Virus record (IMG/VR): IMGVR_UViG_3300050821_007552
Coordinates: 1-52,374 of that record
From: a virus
Direction: 5' to 3' (one strand)
Length of the DNA: 52,374 nt
Notes under the pieces: generated by a model
What the model saw: only the letters and a program-made list of their open reading frames with translations
The model's database searches: none
Told to the model about the DNA's origin: nothing
Shown here: piece after piece, positions 22,475 to 37,712 of the stretch
Layout of the letters: each line of letters opens with the position of its first letter
Position numbering within the stretch: the stretch's first letter is position 1
Position numbers and translations under genes: made by a program

Positions 22475-22617
22475 TTGAGAAGCACCGTCCCAAGAAACGC
22501 AGCGACGAAAAGCGCACCTGATAACAGAATCAGTTGCGCAACGATCTGAGCGCCACGCTCGCCGAAAGCATGCAGAGCGAGAAGCGCAATAACTCCGATC
22601 AGTCCGAAAAAGTGCAT
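22456..22617 (-). CDS. Small two-helix membrane protein ending GPVWW
   Basis: 53 residues: MHFFGLIGVIALLALHAFGE, a short turn, then LILLSGALFVAAFLGTVLL and NGPVWW. Two hydrophobic segments. GGAGAG lies upstream of the ATG. Shares its terminal motif with the downstream gene. Confidence 0.5.
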   Translation of the reverse strand: MHFFGLIGVIALLALHAFGERGAQIVAQLILLSGALFVAAFLGTVLLNGPVWW

Positions 22618-22801: not shown

Positions 22802-23266
22802 TCAAGACCGTTGATCAATTCGCCTACTGTAGCGCCTGGCAGCGTCCGTGTCAACCCCTAAAAGCCACGCTAATTTACCTATTTCGTGTTTTTCGTATTT
22901 ATTGCCGCAGAGCATATCCCAATGCGCAATAGCCGCACGGCCGTTAATCGGCGATGCCGCAATTGCAATTTTAAGCGCGCTAGAAGCCGGCTCTTGACAA
23001 GCTGCTAAAATCCGCTCTTTACGCTTCGTTCGACCAAAATCCGTTCTTGGCAGTTTTCCGACCGCAATTAAGTCATCAATTACGCTCGCAAGCAATCCGC
23101 CACATAAATCCGCCAAATCCGTCGTTAAGCCGGCTTCTACACAATCGCGCGTTAAAGCCGGACTTGCGAACCGTACCAATTTAGCGCGAATAGCCGTGCT
23201 ATGACGCATAGCTTGCTCTAACGCATATTGCGCCACTTTAATAGCCGGTAGCCGATTTTCGTTCAT
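22802..23266 (-). CDS. First gene of the minus early operon, possible DNA-binding regulator
   Basis: 154 residues, ATG at 23266 with GGAAGGAAG upstream; the in-frame extension further upstream covers the hairpin leader and is unlikely to be coding. Helical throughout. The C-terminal EIGKLAWLLGVDTDAARRYSRRID has helix-turn-helix character. The segment VIDDLIAVGKL (about residues 73-83) is repeated in the membrane protein at 30007 with only synonymous DNA differences. Transcribed from the operator-rich region, so it may be the regulator acting there; no family recognised. Confidence 0.55.
   Translation of the reverse strand: MNENRLPAIKVAQYALEQAMRHSTAIRAKLVRFASPALTRDCVEAGLTTDLADLCGGLLASVIDDLIAVGKLPRTDFGRTKRKERILAACQEPASSALKIAIAASPINGRAAIAHWDMLCGNKYEKHEIGKLAWLLGVDTDAARRYSRRIDQRS
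23051..23082 (-). repeat. 32-bp segment shared with 30068-30099
   Basis: Minus strand here matches the plus strand at 30068-30099 in 30 of 32 positions. Both copies are read in the same frame (encoding IDDLIAVGKL) and both differences are silent (GAT/GAC, GCG/GCA). Confidence 0.85.
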
Positions 23267-23294
23267 GACTCTTTCTTCCTTCCCTTCCTTTTTG

Positions 23295-23336
23295 GGGACC
23301 CCCCACTTAAAAAGGGGGGTCCCACCCCGTAGGGGT
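23295..23336 (-). promoter_or_regulatory. Stable hairpins in the 5' leader of the 23266 gene
   Basis: A perfect 10-bp inverted repeat, GGGACCCCCC (23295-23304) and GGGGGGTCCC (23314-23323) with a 9-base loop, next to ACCCC-GTA-GGGGT (23324-23336). No U-run follows on either strand, so it is not an ordinary terminator. On the minus strand it lies in the untranslated leader, 29 bases before the start codon. Confidence 0.6.
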
Positions 23337-23418
23337 AGGGGACTGGCCTCTCCCTTGTGACTAGTAAAAAAATCAGTAAGGACGATACATGACGCCATTC
23401 TGAGTGTACAGTGTACCG

Positions 23419-23487
23419 TCCTTAAGGTGAGAAAACGTTCCTTAAGGAAAATTTCCTCACCTTAAGGACATTTTCTTACCCTAAGGA
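23419..23487. promoter_or_regulatory. Array of four operators (TCCTTAAGGA type)
   Basis: Four near-perfect palindromes: CCTTAAGG at 23420-23427, 23440-23447 (extended to TTCCTTAAGGAA) and 23460-23467, and CCCTAAGG at 23479-23486. Centres are 20, 20 and 19 bp apart, about two helical turns, so bound dimers would lie on one DNA face. The 313-base gap 23267-23579 holds this array, one further site at 23529-23538, the leader hairpins and promoters, and no gene. Confidence 0.75.
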
Positions 23488-23899: not shown

Positions 23900-23927
23900 T
23901 ACATACGTCAATAGATGGAGATCGAAA

Positions 23928-25788: not shown

Positions 25789-25800
25789 AAAGCATGCTTT
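25789..25800. repeat. Palindrome AAAGCATGCTTT, copy 1
   Basis: Perfect 12-bp palindrome ending six bases before the prim-pol start codon, so it covers the ribosome-binding position. Not in a supported gene. Confidence 0.8.
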
Positions 25801-25806
25801 TGCGCA

Positions 25807-27861
25807 ATGACGCTTCCCGCAACCATTCAAGATTTTTGGGCCGCCGCAATTGCACGCGGCCTCTTTCCACTGGCAATCGCCAAGGGCACCAAGGCTCCAA
25901 TCGGCGAGGGTTGGAACGTTTGGACGCGACCGGTTCCCCACCCCGGCGCCGACTCTGTAGGGCTGCGCTGCCGTGATCGAGGCCTGTCCGGCTTTGATGT
26001 AGACGTGAGCCACATTGCTCTCGCCGCGAGGCTCCTGCAGGCATTCCGTGACGTGCTGGGGCCGGACATTCCGATACGCTGGGGCCGGCGGCCGCGTTTC
26101 CTGATCCCATTTTTCTTGACCGATGCACCCGTTAAGAGTCGCACATTTACGTTTCCCGATGGCGAAAAGCTCCAGCTCATGGGCGGCCAATTCGTCGCTT
26201 TCGGTCCTCACAAAGATACGGGCGAGCCGTACGAATGGGAGAATTGGGATAGCGAGTGGCCGCGAATCACAGCCGCACAACTGATTGATATCCTTGCGAG
26301 AGTTCCCATGCTCGCGGGTACGTCATTGCACCTCAGCGCTGAGCACGAAACATGCAGCGACGAAGAATTGCAAGAGGCCGTGCCGCAGACGCAGGACGAG
26401 TGGCAAGCCGGCCGCGACGCTGCGCAACGCTATCTTGGATTACTTAAACAGGAGTTGATGGGTCGCACGGAAGGTCGCGGAAGCGTAATCTTTGCCATCG
26501 TCGGCGTGCTGAAATTTGCCGAAATGCACGGCATGTGTGTACGTCACGAAATCGAAGAAGCGATAATCGAAGCCGGCCATGGTCTCGATGAAGCCGTTGG
26601 CGGTCGGAAGCTCGGCGAGGAGATCGCCAGGCATGACCAGCTCCCCGTACTCCGTGGCAACCTGATCATGGGCGCCGTTACGGGCCGTCGCGTGTTAAAG
26701 CATGCTTTTCTAGATGCGCGGAACGCGCCGACCATGGTTGCGCGGACCGGCTTTGAAATTTCTCTCGACGACAACACAAACGAGCTACCATGGCTTCTAT
26801 ACCAGCGGATCCTATGCGGCGAAGTTCATTTTTTCACTGGCCATTCAGGGGCCGGCAAATCAACCGTGGTGACCGATTTGGCCGTGAGCTACCTCACTGG
26901 CACCCCATGGCTTGACGCCGATGTAGAGTGTCCTGGCGGCCACGTGCTATGGATTGCCGCGGAGGACGAGTACGGAACCGAACGACGGGTGCGGCACCTT
27001 CTCAGGCAGCGTCCGGATGGCCGTGAACTCGCCGACCGTTTCCATTTGATTCCAGCTATTAACGAACCGTTAGCGTTTGAACGGCAAGCTATTGCACAGA
27101 TTCAAGCAATGGCGGCCATGGGCAAGACGGTTGGTTTATCCGTGTTGGACACGTGGGGAGCGAGCGGGCTGTGTTTCGCCGACAATGACACCGAAAGCGT
27201 CTTGAAAGCCATGTTTATTTTGAAATCTATCGCCCGCCGCATGAACGTGGCTCTCGTAGTCACGGATCACCTACCGCTTGGCAACGAAGATGCATTCCAG
27301 AAAGGCAACGGAGCTAAATCGGGCAATTCCGGTTTTGTGTACCGGGTTACCGCTGGGAGGCAGGACGCCGTCTCGATCGATTGCGGAAAGGCTCGCGGCG
27401 CGCCGAAATCAAAAAGCTATCTTGGCCGAATCACATCAGAAAGCTATGGTCTAGACAGCAAGGGACGCGTGACTACGGTTAACGTGTTCAGGCGCGAGGT
27501 TGCTCCTAGCAAGCAGGAAGTTGAACAATCCGCAACGGTAAGGCTTGCTGCAATGCTGCCTGGCGCGGTAGCTGAAGGCATGGATGCCTTGCGGGCCGGC
27601 CAGATTGTCAAATTCGAAAGCGTATGTGAGCTTGGTGGCAAGATACTTGAGGGGGACGTGCCCGGCTACGTCATCAATCGAGACGCCGCCCAGCGTATTT
27701 TTGGCAAGGATGGCCTGAAGGGCTTGCTTGACAGCGGCTACTTGCGTATGATGCGTGGGTGTCCGTACCTAGCTGTATACGCCCCGATGAACGGCGTTGA
27801 CAGGAAAAAGCATGCTTTGATCATGCCTTGGTCAATCGAGCTGCCAAAACCATGGGGTTGA
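25807..27861 (+). CDS. Primase-polymerase/RepA-like helicase fusion
   Basis: 684 residues. ATG at 25807 starts a bifunctional prim-pol-like domain (about 1-190): FPLAIAKGTKAPIGEGW, GLRCRDRGLSGFDVDVSH with acidic D-x-D, and a GRRPRFLIPF strand. A central linker is followed by a RecA-like AAA_25/RepA helicase domain with Walker A GHSGAGKST (near 338-346), LWIAAEDE and SVLDTWGA as Walker B-like, and a VVTDHLPLG motif. The C-terminus is a winged-helix-like region ending KKHALIMPWSIELPKPWG. It probably primes and unwinds phage DNA. No strong Shine-Dalgarno; the palindrome may regulate it. Confidence 0.8.
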   Translation: MTLPATIQDFWAAAIARGLFPLAIAKGTKAPIGEGWNVWTRPVPHPGADSVGLRCRDRGLSGFDVDVSHIALAARLLQAFRDVLGPDIPIRWGRRPRFLIPFFLTDAPVKSRTFTFPDGEKLQLMGGQFVAFGPHKDTGEPYEWENWDSEWPRITAAQLIDILARVPMLAGTSLHLSAEHETCSDEELQEAVPQTQDEWQAGRDAAQRYLGLLKQELMGRTEGRGSVIFAIVGVLKFAEMHGMCVRHEIEEAIIEAGHGLDEAVGGRKLGEEIARHDQLPVLRGNLIMGAVTGRRVLKHAFLDARNAPTMVARTGFEISLDDNTNELPWLLYQRILCGEVHFFTGHSGAGKSTVVTDLAVSYLTGTPWLDADVECPGGHVLWIAAEDEYGTERRVRHLLRQRPDGRELADRFHLIPAINEPLAFERQAIAQIQAMAAMGKTVGLSVLDTWGASGLCFADNDTESVLKAMFILKSIARRMNVALVVTDHLPLGNEDAFQKGNGAKSGNSGFVYRVTAGRQDAVSIDCGKARGAPKSKSYLGRITSESYGLDSKGRVTTVNVFRREVAPSKQEVEQSATVRLAAMLPGAVAEGMDALRAGQIVKFESVCELGGKILEGDVPGYVINRDAAQRIFGKDGLKGLLDSGYLRMMRGCPYLAVYAPMNGVDRKKHALIMPWSIELPKPWG
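26697..26708. repeat. Palindrome AAAGCATGCTTT, copy 2
   Basis: Perfect copy inside the prim-pol/helicase gene, read as KHAF. Confidence 0.8.
27807..27818. repeat. Palindrome AAAGCATGCTTT, copy 3
   Basis: Perfect copy 43 bases before the end of the prim-pol/helicase gene and 34 bases before the C5-methyltransferase start; read as KKHAL. Confidence 0.8.
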
Positions 27862-28664
27862 AACCGCTTGCCATCGATCTGTTCTGCGGCCTTGGTGGCT
27901 GGACGGAAGGCTTGCTTGCCGAGGGCTATGATGTGGTCGGCTTCGACATTAAGCGGCACGTCTATGGCAACCATTGCTATCCGGCGCAGCTTGTCATCCA
28001 GGACGTTCGCACGCTTCACGGCTCGCAGTTCCGGAATGCCACACTGATCGTCGCATCGCCGCCTTGCCAAGCGTACAGCTATCGGGCGATGCCGTGGCGA
28101 CGCGCTAAGGCGTTGCCGCCACCCGACAATGCGCTATTCAACGAATGCTTCCGCATTCAGCGCGAGGCGTGCGAAGCGGCGGGACGGCATATTCCGATGG
28201 TTGTCGAGAACGTACGCGGTGCGCAGCCGTGGGTCGGGAGAGCCCGTCAGAATTTCGGGAGTTTTTATTTGTGGGGCGACGTGCCAGCGTTGTTCGTCAT
28301 TGCGAACAACATCACGAGCGGGTACGGTCGAAAGGCACCTGATGGTACGCGTTGGTTCAACGATGAACCCCGCAATCCTAATTCACTAGCTTCCTCAAGT
28401 TCACGTTCTTCAAAACGCAAATTCGCGAGCGCCATGATCGCGAAAATACCGCTGCCACTCAGCCGGCACATTGCGACAACATTCAAGGGGGCTTCGGTGG
28501 GGCTAAAATCGAATGGCGAGTGGAACGGAATTTGCGCCTGCGGAAAAACAGTCGCGGATGGCGTACGGTGTCGGTTCGGCGCGACTCACGAGAAAAAGCA
28601 TGCTTTTCCGTGGGAGATTGAGCAACCAGAAAGGAAAATGCCATGGGAACGTACACCTTCGTAA
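27852..28664 (+). CDS. DNA (cytosine-5) methyltransferase
   Basis: 270 residues, ATG at 27852 overlapping the helicase 3' end. Motif I IDLFCGLGG (8-16), motif IV with catalytic Cys SPPCQ (69-73), motif VI VVENV (117-121), and FGSFYLWGDVPALF typical of the region before the target domain. The C-terminal LPLSRHIATTF matches motif X-like ends of phage C5 enzymes. It ends with a Cys-containing extension (CACGKTVADGVRC) and KKHAFPWEIE...KMPWERTPS. It likely protects phage DNA from host restriction. No cognate endonuclease is nearby. Confidence 0.85.
   Translation: MGLKPLAIDLFCGLGGWTEGLLAEGYDVVGFDIKRHVYGNHCYPAQLVIQDVRTLHGSQFRNATLIVASPPCQAYSYRAMPWRRAKALPPPDNALFNECFRIQREACEAAGRHIPMVVENVRGAQPWVGRARQNFGSFYLWGDVPALFVIANNITSGYGRKAPDGTRWFNDEPRNPNSLASSSSRSSKRKFASAMIAKIPLPLSRHIATTFKGASVGLKSNGEWNGICACGKTVADGVRCRFGATHEKKHAFPWEIEQPERKMPWERTPS
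28595..28606. repeat. Palindrome AAAGCATGCTTT, copy 4
   Basis: Perfect copy near the 3' end of the C5-methyltransferase gene, 37 bases before the next start; read as KKHAF. Confidence 0.8.
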
Positions 28665-28816
28665 CGTTACAAATTAGCGATGTTGCGTACAATGAAATAG
28701 AAATTGCTCTTCGAGAGGTTGGTTATGATCATGTATTCGGAGATAAGGGTGAGATCAACATGCACGGTCTTGCACTTATAAAGAAGCGTGATGATAAAGC
28801 GGAGCCCGCTGAATGA
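28643..28816 (+). CDS. Small hypothetical protein
   Basis: 57 residues, MGTYTFVTLQISDVAYNEIE; AAGGA precedes the ATG at 28643 inside the methyltransferase end (overlap of 22 bases). Beta-alpha pattern with YDHVFGDKGEINMHGLAL. Stop overlaps the next start (ATGA). Confidence 0.5.
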   Translation: MGTYTFVTLQISDVAYNEIEIALREVGYDHVFGDKGEINMHGLALIKKRDDKAEPAE

Positions 28817-29109
28817 AGATGCCGTGGGAGCCGTCTTTAGAGGACGTTGTTCGGGCGTTGCGGGCAGACATGCAGTTTATGCACGCATTTACGGCTATAC
28901 TCGTGCGCAGTCAGAATGAGGAGCTACGTATGGTCGTAAATACTGAACGTGGGCAAGTCATGCCGGAAGGTAAGTGCACCTTTAAGGATGGTACTACTAT
29001 CGAATTCCAGGATATCGGCATGCCGCAGATCGGCGTGCCGACAATGACCACAAAGGAGCTTGTGCTAACAACGCTGCATAAGGCGTTTGCTCTGGGGCTT
29101 GAAATATGA
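28813..29109 (+). CDS. Hypothetical protein beginning MKMPWE
   Basis: 98 residues. Short MPWE start, helical region EDVVRALRADMQFMHAFTAI, then a beta region CTFKDGTTIEFQDIGMPQIG. ATGA overlaps on both sides. Function unknown; part of the replication operon. Confidence 0.55.
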   Translation: MKMPWEPSLEDVVRALRADMQFMHAFTAILVRSQNEELRMVVNTERGQVMPEGKCTFKDGTTIEFQDIGMPQIGVPTMTTKELVLTTLHKAFALGLEI

Positions 29110-29672
29110 CCGTCGTCGCTTCAAAATTCGCACGCGTAACGAACGATCTGTATGAAACAGAACCGTGGGTAACGCGAGCGTTGATGCGACATTTTCCACC
29201 AGTGCAGGATCGCAAGATATGGGAACCCGCCGCCGGCAATCATGCCATTGCTGACGTATTGCGAGAAGGTGGCGCTCTCGTATGCACTACTGACGTAGTA
29301 ACTCACGATCGGCCTCACAATTTTATATTCAACTTCTTCAAAGATACCGATTTGTATATAATGCAAAGCTCTCCGGATATTATTACTAACCCGCCTTACG
29401 GTAAAGGCTGTCGTGACGCCGCCCGGTTTGCGCGCTTGGCGTTCCAGCGTACTAATGGATGGATTGCGCTCTTGCTTCCTGCGACATTCGACTTTGGAAG
29501 GAGTCGTCGCGATCTTTTTGTGGACAATCCGCGGTTTTCTTTCAAAATTGCGTTAACGCATCGAATACAATGGTTTCCCGGTAAGTATGGTTCAACTCAG
29601 AATCACGCGTGGTATGTGTGGGGACCGCTGTGGCAACCGCCGCCGCGCATTTTTTATGAGGGGGAGGATTAA
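29106..29672 (+). CDS. DNA adenine-N6 methyltransferase-like protein
   Basis: 188 residues. Motif I IWEPAAGNHAIADVL (38-52), a TTDVV acidic strand (61-65), and catalytic motif IV TNPPYGKG (94-101), followed by WIALLLPATFDFG. This is the compact N6-adenine methyltransferase form seen in many phages. It lacks a recognisable target-recognition domain. Together with the C5 enzyme it suggests two layers of DNA modification. ATGA overlap with the previous gene. Confidence 0.8.
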   Translation: MTVVASKFARVTNDLYETEPWVTRALMRHFPPVQDRKIWEPAAGNHAIADVLREGGALVCTTDVVTHDRPHNFIFNFFKDTDLYIMQSSPDIITNPPYGKGCRDAARFARLAFQRTNGWIALLLPATFDFGRSRRDLFVDNPRFSFKIALTHRIQWFPGKYGSTQNHAWYVWGPLWQPPPRIFYEGED

Positions 29673-29675
29673 ATT

Positions 29676-29993
29676 ATGAGCATGCCATATTGGCCCCTAA
29701 GCGCGATCTGTGCATCGCCGCTACTAACGCCGCAAGCTCGGCATGAGCTAGGCGCAGTTTACCACACGACTAAAATATCTCCCAAAACGTTTGATTGTTG
29801 CGGCACTATTGCAGAAAATTCACCGCCAACCGCAATGATGAATGGGCTCGTACTGATCAAAGACGTTTCTTCCTGCCCAAAGCATGCTTATTTGCACATG
29901 CCTACGTATGAACAGTGGAGCTTGATGGAGCGAGGATGCATGATCTTGGATTTTGACGGTCAACTTATGCTTTTTTTGAATCCGCTTCACTGA
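29676..29993 (+). CDS. Hypothetical protein
   Basis: 105 residues, MSMPYWPLSAICASPLLTPQ, with GGAGG upstream. Contains DCCGTIAENSPP and SSCPKHAYLHMP; the latter includes a copy of the palindrome. Three Cys pairs may bind metal. Function unknown. Confidence 0.55.
   Translation: MSMPYWPLSAICASPLLTPQARHELGAVYHTTKISPKTFDCCGTIAENSPPTAMMNGLVLIKDVSSCPKHAYLHMPTYEQWSLMERGCMILDFDGQLMLFLNPLH
29879..29890. repeat. Palindrome AAAGCATGCTTA, copy 5
   Basis: One mismatch at the last base from the other copies; read as KHAY in the 29676 gene. Confidence 0.7.
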
Positions 29994-30006
29994 AAGAGGT
30001 AAAAAC

Positions 30007-30264
30007 ATGATCCCATGGCTGTCTGCAATTTGTTTGACATTTCAACTGAGTATTTTGTTTTACGTATTAATTGACGACTTAATTGCAGTCGGAAAACTGG
30101 ATGCGCCGATGATTAATCACTACGGAGGCGCTTGGTTCATTCTTGGATTCTCAATTGCTCTTGTTTTGAGTGATTTAATTTCAAGTCCTAAACCAAATTG
30201 GAAGATATGTACTGCAATTGCAGTGATGCAAATTCTAATTCTGTACTTTTTGGTGCATCGATGA
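30007..30264 (+). CDS. Membrane protein, tandem copy 1 (intact)
   Basis: 85 residues. Helix 1 WLSAICLTFQLSILFYVLI, then DDLIAVGKLDAPMINHYGG, helix 2 WFILGFSIALVLSDLI, basic loop SSPKPNWK, helix 3 CTAIAVMQILILYFLVHR. AGAGG before the ATG. Overlaps the second copy by ATGA. Differs from copy 2 by a 31-bp insertion (30067-30097) that keeps this ORF open. Function unknown; possibly a membrane anchor or early takeover peptide. Confidence 0.6.
   Translation: MIPWLSAICLTFQLSILFYVLIDDLIAVGKLDAPMINHYGGAWFILGFSIALVLSDLISSPKPNWKICTAIAVMQILILYFLVHR
30068..30099 (+). repeat. 32-bp segment shared with 23051-23082
   Basis: Two mismatches in 32 to the minus strand at 23051-23082, both synonymous. It nearly coincides with the 31-bp block absent from tandem copy 2. 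Confidence 0.85.
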
Positions 30265-30341
30265 TACTCATCCCGTGGTTGTCTGCAATTTGTTTGGCGT
30301 CTCAACTGAGCGTTTTGTTTTACGTATGGGTGCGACGATGA
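30261..30341 (+). pseudogene. Membrane protein tandem copy 2, N-terminal fragment
   Basis: 26 codons: MILIPWLSAICLASQLSVLF then YVWVRR and stop. Homologous to the first helix of copy 1 and closed by a frame change where copy 1 has 31 extra bases. May still make a one-helix peptide. Confidence 0.6.
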
Positions 30342-30493
30342 CTCACTACGAAGGAGGAATTTGGTACGTTCTTGGATTCTTAATTGCTCTTATTTTAAGT
30401 GATTTAATTTCACGTCCTAAACCGAATTGGAAGATATGTACTGCAATTGTAGTGATGCAAATTTTCATTTTGTACTTTTTGATGCATCGATGA
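30338..30493 (+). CDS. Membrane protein tandem copy 2, C-terminal part
   Basis: 51 residues: MTHYEGGIWYVLGFLIALIL, then SDLISRPKPNWK and a second helix ending YFLMHR. Matches the last two helices of copy 1 with few changes. Its ATG overlaps the stop of the fragment and its stop overlaps the helicase start, so it seems to be maintained as a separate gene. Confidence 0.55.
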   Translation: MTHYEGGIWYVLGFLIALILSDLISRPKPNWKICTAIVVMQIFILYFLMHR

Positions 30494-32091
30494 TGTTCGT
30501 TCCGCGCAAACACCAGATCGAAGGCGTTCAGGCCTTGACGGAATACGCCGGCCGTTTCAGCGTTGCTGAGATAGCCGTGGCCGGTGGCAAGAGCGCCATG
30601 CTCGGCATGTTGGCTGCGCATTACAGTTCGACAAACCGCGTCTTGATCGTAGCTCACAACAAAGAACTGGTCATGCAAAACGACGAAGCTTGTCGAGAAT
30701 TAGAATTGCGTCCCGGTATCTGCAGCGCATCCATCAGTACCAACGCATTCGCTCGAATTACCGTTGGCACCATAGGTACTATTGTCAATCGCACGCACAT
30801 GTTTCGCAATGTCACGGCTATTCTCGTTGATGAAGTACATCGCGTGCCTCCCGCCAAATCTTCGCAGTATCGTCAGCTTTTCAATAAGCTTCCACACACC
30901 AAAGTTCACGGTCTAACCGGCACGCCTTTTCGATCCGACGGAACTGGTGATCTGGAAAAGACATTTGGCCCCGTCGTTTATCGATACACATTTCTTGATG
31001 CGCTTCGTGACGCCTACGTCAAGCCGCTCGTACCGGTCGATGCCGGCGAGGACGAAACGATTGATGTGGAGGGACTAAGTACGGTTGCCGGAGATTTTGA
31101 TCTCGACGAAATGGCGCCGCGGGCGATTAAGCTCGTGCCGAGTCATGTTAAAACGATATTAGATGTTATGCAAAAGTTCAATCGTCGCCGCGTATTGGTA
31201 TTCTCGTGCAATATCGCCCACGTTGATAAATTGGAAGAAGAGTTTAAGCGCTGTGGCGCTACCGTTGCCGGAGTACACTCGCGATCGATTGTCGGCAAAC
31301 GGGATAAAGCAGTCGAAGCTTTCCGGACGGGACAAGTCGGCATTCTCGTCTCATGCAACATGTTAACGACAGGTTTCAACGTGCCGGATATCGATTATCT
31401 GGCATTTTGTAGAGCTATTAAATCTCCAGTTTATTACGCACAAGGGCTTGGCCGCGGAGCCCGGATTACTCCTTATGCCGCAAACTGCTTAGTTTCAGAC
31501 TTTGGCGGCAACATTGAACGCCACGGAGCACTAGACGCTGTGGTAGCGTCGCCGGGCCGGATGCTGACGTGCGATGAATGCCGCGATGAGTGGCAAACGT
31601 GGGAGCACGGCCGTACGTGTCCGAAATGTGAGACGATCCACAAGAGCGCACCGAAGTGTAAAGCATGCTTTTTGCGTTTCGATCCGCACTACCACGGTAT
31701 GCGTTGTCCGCACTGCAGAACGCAGCAATCAGCTATTAAGCAATGCGCGGCGTGTGATCAGACCTACGCTGCTTTTTTGCACCCGACATGTCCATTTTGC
31801 AGTTATGATAACGCAATCGAACAATCGGCAGGTAAGGATCTAAAAACTCGCGGTGGCGGACGTGAGGCCGTCAGCATAACGAAAATCATAGAAGGAGAAC
31901 CATGGCAGGTTGTAGTGTCGCCGCCTGTTAAGCACACGAGCGGTTGGTTGCTTACGACTAAATTCACAACGGCTTTGTGGCCTTACGAAGACTTGCCAGA
32001 GCCGCACTCAGTCTATCTAAAGCGTGCTAAAAATGGCAAGTATGTCGCCGCGGGCATTTATGACGTTAATGGCCGTATACATGAACGGTAG
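30490..32091 (+). CDS. SF2 DEAD/DEAH-type helicase with three zinc ribbons
   Basis: 533 residues, ATG at 30490 in ATGATG overlapping the previous stop. Walker A-like AVAGGKSAML (about 29-38), DEVH box ILVDEVHRVP, motif III LTGTPFRSDG, motif IV VLVFSCNIAHVD, motif V LTTGFNVPDIDY and motif VI QGLGRGARIT: a complete RecA-like pair. From about residue 355 three Cys4 ribbons follow (CDECRDEW..CPKC, CKACFLRF..CPHC, CAACDQTY..CPFC). Similar proteins act in phage replication or recombination as ATP-dependent translocases. The C-terminal 60 residues form an unknown beta domain. Confidence 0.85.
   Translation: MMFVPRKHQIEGVQALTEYAGRFSVAEIAVAGGKSAMLGMLAAHYSSTNRVLIVAHNKELVMQNDEACRELELRPGICSASISTNAFARITVGTIGTIVNRTHMFRNVTAILVDEVHRVPPAKSSQYRQLFNKLPHTKVHGLTGTPFRSDGTGDLEKTFGPVVYRYTFLDALRDAYVKPLVPVDAGEDETIDVEGLSTVAGDFDLDEMAPRAIKLVPSHVKTILDVMQKFNRRRVLVFSCNIAHVDKLEEEFKRCGATVAGVHSRSIVGKRDKAVEAFRTGQVGILVSCNMLTTGFNVPDIDYLAFCRAIKSPVYYAQGLGRGARITPYAANCLVSDFGGNIERHGALDAVVASPGRMLTCDECRDEWQTWEHGRTCPKCETIHKSAPKCKACFLRFDPHYHGMRCPHCRTQQSAIKQCAACDQTYAAFLHPTCPFCSYDNAIEQSAGKDLKTRGGGREAVSITKIIEGEPWQVVVSPPVKHTSGWLLTTKFTTALWPYEDLPEPHSVYLKRAKNGKYVAAGIYDVNGRIHER
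31660..31671. repeat. Palindrome AAAGCATGCTTT, copy 6
   Basis: Perfect copy in the helicase zinc-ribbon region, read in a different frame (KACF) from most other copies. Confidence 0.8.
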
Positions 32092-37481: not shown

Positions 37482-37712
37482 ATGGTTCGCCGCCGAAAGC
37501 TTTTGATTTATTACAAGAGGATCGTCCCCAGTCAAAAAATCATGATCTCCATGCGTTTACCTACTAGTCTCGTCGAGCGGCTTGATTTCATCGTTCGGAA
37601 TGACGAAGCCAACGCAGCAACCCGATCGTCCGAAATTCAGGCAGCTATCGAGTCATGGCTCGACAATCGCGAACGTCGCATGCGTGAATTAGGTTTGGAA
37701 CCACCGACATGA
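37482..37712 (+). CDS. Ribbon-helix-helix DNA-binding protein
   Basis: 76 residues from ATG 37482; an internal ATG at 37542 would give a 56-residue minimal domain. ISMRLPTSLVERLDFIV, then SSEIQAAIESWLDN is the strand-helix-helix layout of CopG/Arc/MetJ repressors. Operon with the VRR-NUC gene by ATGA overlap. A candidate binder of the CCTTAAGG palindromes, since RHH dimers favour short palindromes. Confidence 0.7.
   Translation: MVRRRKLLIYYKRIVPSQKIMISMRLPTSLVERLDFIVRNDEANAATRSSEIQAAIESWLDNRERRMRELGLEPPT

Follow-up and report, generated by a model that had tools for sequence, protein, structure and literature searches.

The stretch of DNA analysed here, referred to as the window, is the viral record IMGVR_UViG_3300050821_007552 (52,374 nt), and its replication genes carry a repeated 12-bp palindrome, AAAGCATGCTTT. 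Five perfect copies and a sixth site with the variant AAAGCATGCTTA were found, all within 25789-31671. The first copy (25789..25800) stands 6 bases 5' of the start codon of a type-1 primase-helicase, here called prim-pol (25807..27861, +; Prim-Pol and AAA_25 domains according to Pfam and PHROGs). Two further copies lie within this gene, at 26697..26708, where the word is read L-KHAF, and at 27807..27818 in the C-terminal tail (KHAL). The fourth (28595..28606, KHAFPWE) is close to the end of a C5 cytosine methyltransferase-like open reading frame (ORF) (27852..28664, +; Pfam PF00145, 2.5e-8). Next come a 98-aa protein with no function assigned (28813..29109, +), a phage DNA methyltransferase with an NPPY motif (29106..29672, +; phrog_799, 5.8e-42) and a 105-aa ORF (29676..29993, +) which holds the variant site (29879..29890, KHAY). 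The last copy (31660..31671) is situated in the C-terminal zinc-ribbon region of an SF2 helicase (30490..32091, +; Pfam; phrog_16, 3.5e-66), where it is read KACF in a different codon phase. All results are computational, and many of the relatives compared are fragments.

A preliminary description of the window had listed the same five perfect copies and the single-mismatch site at 29879, and our scan reproduced these positions exactly. The search of all 52,374 bases with 0-1 mismatch gave no copy beyond the six sites, in keeping with the statement that the structural regions are free of the word; the partial match mentioned near 22567 was found to be AAAGCATGCAGA. The three copies said to precede start codons by 6-37 bases do so by 6 (ATG 25807), 33 (ATG 27852) and 36 bases (ATG 28643). 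A control word, the palindrome reversed and uncomplemented, had zero copies in the window. The description had also held that such a 12-mer should occur far less than once in 52 kb and had suggested a Markov background count. This count put the expected number of perfect copies at 0.0065-0.043 (orders 1-5), far below the 5 observed, and counting on both strands gave 10 copies versus 0.013 expected with the order-3 background. When 2 mismatches were allowed, the signal was weak (7 matches versus a shuffle mean of 3.23), and the excess therefore sits in the exact copies. The rough chance probability of six sites clustering inside 5.9 kb is 1e-4.

The copies are selected as nucleic acid, independently of the protein. 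This follows from synonymous shuffles, from changed residues at the sites, from the use of three codon phases and from intergenic copies. When the synonymous codons of eight genes were shuffled 20,000 times, the mean was 0.070 copies and three or more were never obtained, versus 4 observed. In an alignment of 11 prim-pol sequences, KHAF occurs at the second copy only in the three motif bearers, and the other eight sequences have xQGL or xQAV there. The sixth copy encodes F-L in the window, at a place where relatives mostly have a polar residue and then E or K. Across the bearers all three codon phases are used (KHAF, KACF, KSML). The claim of the preliminary description that protein conservation does not explain the copies is upheld; a motif present only where the protein is conserved would, according to that description, have spoken against it, and the opposite was seen, the motif-free relatives carrying other residues. 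The word recurs in related phages, where the description had proposed to look for it, and sometimes at homologous places.

The relatives, designated here by record (G) or locus (L) numbers, were collected in several ways. A prim-pol profile search of IMG/VR gave 28 full-length relatives and one weak match, L039. Whole-record scans of the 28 (1 mismatch) revealed several copies in G001, G008, G011 and G025, a single copy in G005, G015, G016 and G024, and none in 20. The five bearers based on prim-pol, the window included, form one clade (support 100/99), and methyltransferase relatives (80 loci) added two members to it, G031 and G032. Gene associations within this clade carry little weight because the tree shows the trait to be old there. 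Two pattern scans returned at least 232 loci, at least 15 of them with two or more copies. Among these were G029, with seven copies in 1.8 kb, a capsid of the W family, to which the window also belongs, and a different primase, and G030, which combines four perfect copies with four AAAGCATGCTTA. The guanine plus cytosine (GC) content of G030 is 42%, and its proteins resemble those of the window clade only weakly (polymerase 25% identical, for instance). Scanning 27 whole records of capsid relatives (from 80 loci), in addition to records covered by the earlier scans, yielded six more bearers, G048-G052 and G056. Thus 15 IMG/VR records bear 4-9 clustered copies each: seven of the window clade, seven of a second lineage and one unrelated phage. 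Their 97 core-type sites comprise 77 AAAGCATGCTTT, 18 AAAGCATGCTTA and 2 TAAGCATGCTTT; TAAGCATGCTTA and the G008 copy AAAGCATGTTTT are omitted from the palindrome tallies. Presence and absence of genes were compared in these 15 bearers and 20 non-bearers, since for several other relatives only fragments are available; outside the 15 stand G034 (6 copies over 74.5 kb), G033 and G035-G037. In the complete-length W-family records examined, all copies fall within a span of about 0.9-8 kb, in the replication operon region only. Named phages include no close relative of the window: searches of named phages and plasmids with prim-pol, capsid, second primase and array gave distant or chance matches only, those with the helicase gave remote family matches only, and two genome scans found no relative.

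Some copy positions are common to several phages of the window clade and others are not. The second copy has the same place in G001, G008, G011 and G025, the third in G001, G008 and G025, and the fourth in G001. At the fifth place G001 has AAAGCATGCTTA, and G008 and G011 have AAAGCATGCTTT. The sixth copy is found also in G025 and G031, and with one change in G032. The counterpart of the first copy in G008 and G011 lies at -10 from the start of the prim-pol match, which is not the base-for-base equal place. Comparison of the window (6 sites) with its close relative G001 (4 sites; prim-pol 95%) demonstrated site gain and loss, since G001 has neither the copy before prim-pol nor the one in the helicase, although the helicase is 93% identical.

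The core of the site, AAGCATGCTT, is 10 bp long and near-invariant, with half-sites (A)(A)AAAGCA and TGCTTT(T)(T). Copies of the window clade are mostly 0.1-3.1 kb apart and lie at gene starts, at gene ends and inside genes, the exception being G032 with three copies at 30 and 35 bp. The second lineage possesses a different type of primase. Its arrays, with copies spaced at 14-46 bp, stand just upstream of the primase operon and number 4-5 copies in G050, G051, G052 and G056 and three in G048. The primase gene itself holds more copies, which in G029, G048 and G049 use two or three codon phases. The array flanks extend to about AAAAAGCATGCTTTTT; G050, G051, G052 and G056 have GATTGCG(C/T)TATCG elements among the copies or next to them, with GTATAC-rich palindromes upstream. 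A fixed orientation relative to transcription was considered and rejected: the flanks are asymmetric within each lineage (A-only 5' versus T-only 3', 5 versus 17 and 11 versus 0), but in opposite senses, which is expected if the site itself is symmetric. The AAAGCATGCTTA variant leans one way (18 versus 2), many of its occurrences being at homologous or tandem places.

Some further loci deserve mention. L195, L215 and L221 have four AAAGCATGCTTT at 47-bp spacing in each locus, and the tandem repeats of L195 (10477-10629) begin at the end of a 119-aa ORF. TGGTATACTGTATACCA-type repeats and a second dyad, CGATTGCGCTATCG, were seen upstream of or between the palindromes in phages of the second lineage, at L497 (4730-4880), L496 (4730-4790) and L499 (5105-5125). 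In L096 (3015-3460) an ORF that appears GcrA-like by eye is located directly upstream of the palindrome array, which hints at an alphaproteobacterial host.

The sites are real, DNA-selected, nearly exact and symmetric, and they are clustered on the replication operon; very probably some DNA-binding protein recognises them. Our favoured and still tentative reading, with a probability of roughly 0.4, is that this would be one sequence-specific dimeric protein and that the sites act as operators and roadblocks on this operon. The array copies just before the operon in the second lineage, or the gene-start copies in the window clade, would be the operators, whereas the intragenic copies would be roadblocks or loop partners that damp read-through, and the replication genes would be switched as a unit. 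Both the dimeric nature of the protein and its control of the operon are what we infer from the sites. The putative binder may be a host protein, or non-homologous regulators may have converged on the same word. Points which we count in support are the excess and confinement of the copies, selection at the DNA level, the lack of a consistent strand bias, the near-exactness of the copies, site gain and loss, the arrays of the second lineage, the copies adjacent to CI/Cro-like genes and those in G030.

In L173, L210, L233, L240 and L280 the identical word adjoins genes that are CI/Cro-like by eye, as would operators of temperate phages. In the same loci companions such as AAAGCATTCTTT were noticed, and the recognition helices share a QAV motif by eye. 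Judged from these loci, a dimeric helix-turn-helix protein could plausibly use the word as its operator. The bearers differ from CI/Cro systems in that PF01381 was not found in the window clade or G029, but it was found in G030, where three copies occupy the tail of a helix-turn-helix gene and the stretch that follows it. The HTH_3 search of 14 records gave matches above the cut-off only in G030, and two below it in G035. CI operators do not typically lie within the coding sequence of replication genes.

Several results weigh against operators and roadblocks. No gene is common to both bearer lineages and missing from the non-bearers, the PF01381 helix-turn-helix domain was found neither in the window nor in the seven other W-family bearers searched, no integrase was detected in the 15 bearer records, and promoter scans at two arrays were unremarkable. 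As no integrase was detected, a lysogenic repressor system for the bearers is unproven. The preliminary description had suggested sites for a replication or recombination protein. Its notion of binding-type sites stands, in the form of DNA-selected sites recurring in relatives. The binders it named (the prim-pol/helicase, the SF2 helicase and the single-stranded DNA-binding protein) are not supported as sole binders: helicase, polymerase, exonuclease and a Gp2.5-like single-stranded DNA-binding protein are present in 20 of the 20 non-bearers and the type-1 prim-pol in 18, and the motif is also found alongside another type of primase. The 98-aa protein (7/7 window-clade bearers, 0/7 of the second lineage) is likewise present in 18 of the 20.

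Other candidates were tried and dropped. One query version of a ribbon-helix-helix protein (37482-37712) matched 14/14 bearers and 4/20 non-bearers; a relative is nevertheless present in all these records, and the predicted DNA-contact strand shows no clear difference. The region upstream of its gene has TGTATGACA/GTATAC-like elements instead of the word in most relatives. A common host of both lineages was not supported by the tetranucleotide signature, which had a mean correlation of 0.37 between the bearer groups versus 0.57 when window-clade bearers were compared with related non-bearers, and this weakens the case for a host-encoded binder. Nor is the word the motif of the likely repressor of the window, since that system uses TCC[CT]TA[AG]GGA near promoters. 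Palindromes of this or the CCTTAAGG type were seen at 23420, 23440, 23460, 23529, 23878 and 25087, several of them adjoining TTGACA-like promoters; these palindromes lie next to the divergent gene 22802-23398(-), with which they probably form a repressor/operator system. G012, G013, G017 and G022 have 10-16 copies of GTTTAAAC genome-wide instead, and one L014 copy stands at the same promoter position.

The main rival explanation, which we regard as possible though unlikely and which takes up the distributed origin suggested in the preliminary description, takes the sites for replication origin iterons: an initiator would bind the array beside the primase operon and open the DNA, and the intragenic copies would be additional iterons or have a regulatory role, as in phages with an origin inside a replication gene. 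The lambda O iterons, for example, lie within the O gene. Arrays of 3-5 copies at 14-46 bp do adjoin the primase operon, and the G056 array contains a perfect DnaA box, TTATCCACA, but this was the only such box among the 6 arrays tested. Close to the G048 array the DNA is AT-rich, with 26% GC over 100 bp at 1164. In G008 and G029 the detrended GC-skew minimum falls within the span of the sites, in the window, G001 and G048 it lies within about 3 kb of this span, and in G049-G052 it is 3-9 kb from the sites. Most window-clade copies are 0.1-3.1 kb apart and not clustered, and the polymerase and helicase of the W family occur without the motif too. RepA_N iterons are described, in passages of PMC7145576, as semi-palindromic repeat arrays at the origin with inverted repeats around a poly-A tract. 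Our sites resemble them in array form only; unlike initiator iterons they also occur as single copies over several kb, in genes of several functions, and no initiator was found.

More doubtful than the operator and roadblock model is a further reading, by which one palindrome would be a shared address on the replication genes of phages without a common identifiable regulator. It would comprise two primase lineages of one soil phage family and the unrelated 42% GC phage, with a conserved host protein or convergent regulators timing or silencing phage replication, and with DNA selection rewriting residues in primase, helicase and methyltransferase genes. Regulatory words inside coding sequence to which the protein adapts are rarely seen so clearly. 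Because the word is so exact, it can readily serve as bait for a new regulator or initiator of phage replication, which may be a host protein that unrelated phages have in common, and metagenomes can be searched with it as a simple marker of phages of this kind.

A function at the RNA level, in which the self-complementary copies would pair in the operon transcript or bind an RNA-binding factor, seems improbable. The five arrays fold more strongly than almost all of their shuffled versions (z -2.8 to -6.6), but they do so because the copies are self-complementary. The copies of the window clade are mostly single and up to 3.1 kb apart, and no Rfam family was found in 6 sources. The post-transcriptional control raised in the preliminary description is disfavoured because the flanks are skewed relative to transcription in one sense in one lineage and in the reverse sense in the other.

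Centromere-like or nucleoid-organising sites of the parS, KorB or Noc type, at which a ParB-like clamp would load, are a slightly poorer candidate. Their features would fit exact, position-tolerant and partly intragenic palindromes with little degeneracy over a few kb. KorB, according to passages of PMC11790492, reads near-exact palindromes as a dimer and silences at a distance, and a KorB oligonucleotide holds TTTTAGCGGCTAAAA. The likeness to KorB and parS sites lies in the near-exact palindromic form; the sequence is different, and at E 0.1 neither ParB_N (PF02195) nor the AAA_31 ParA-type ATPase (PF13614) was found in any of the 15 bearers, whereas the same searches detected PF02195 in 11/14 and PF13614 in 14/14 control genomes.

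It is very improbable that the copies are recognition sites linked with the DNA methyltransferase of the clade itself (29106-29672). This is the most group-specific gene of the window clade, being present in 7/7 of its bearers (61-76% in the other six) and in only 4/20 non-bearers as distant matches (27-32%). It is, however, missing from 7/7 bearers of the second lineage and from G030, by which it is also rejected as a universal partner, and among its 80 relative loci several copies occur only in the six clade members. A 12-bp word is, moreover, long for a methyltransferase site. Finally, chance or a by-product of a conserved KHAF peptide is practically eliminated by the Markov counts, the shuffles, the three phases with intergenic copies and the other residues in relatives, even though window-clade copies are read most often in the KHA phase and a conserved PW motif follows several copies.

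The operator and roadblock model also calls for comparison with the mycobacteriophage L5-type repressor, for which passages of PMC9283540 describe one word repeated at promoters and along transcribed regions, with a proposed block of initiation and elongation. In its working, the system proposed here would resemble a mixture of operators and stoperators. The L5-type stoperators are 13-bp asymmetric sites bound by a monomer; they are found genome-wide, occupy promoters and short spaces between genes, and follow the direction of transcription (PMC9283540). Many copies of one site per record (4-9 in the 15 records) are a common feature. We do not class our sites with the L5-type system because they are palindromic, regional (replication region only) and largely intragenic, and the bearers differ further in the integrase result given above. 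When the full text of PubMed Central was searched with the exact word, the one match was a Campylobacter paper, and no paper on phages came up.

Some minor features of the surrounding genes may be added. The tail of ORF 27852-28664 corresponds to the small CACG/PW ORF of relatives. The C5-methyltransferase part (27852-28520) was not found in G001, where the small CACG ORF comes directly after prim-pol, and this part appears to be a recent insertion or loss. Before ATG codons the window has AGATGGAGATCG at 23914, 25123 and 25466, and AACCGCTGGAGAGC precedes starts in the relatives L006-L014; we take these to resemble the start-associated sequences of cluster K mycobacteriophages. Many early proteins have PW tails or heads (MPWE, FPWE, KPWG; 25066, 27829-27860, 28606-28663 and 28813-28830 in the window), which occur also in relatives without the palindrome and may be a common docking peptide.

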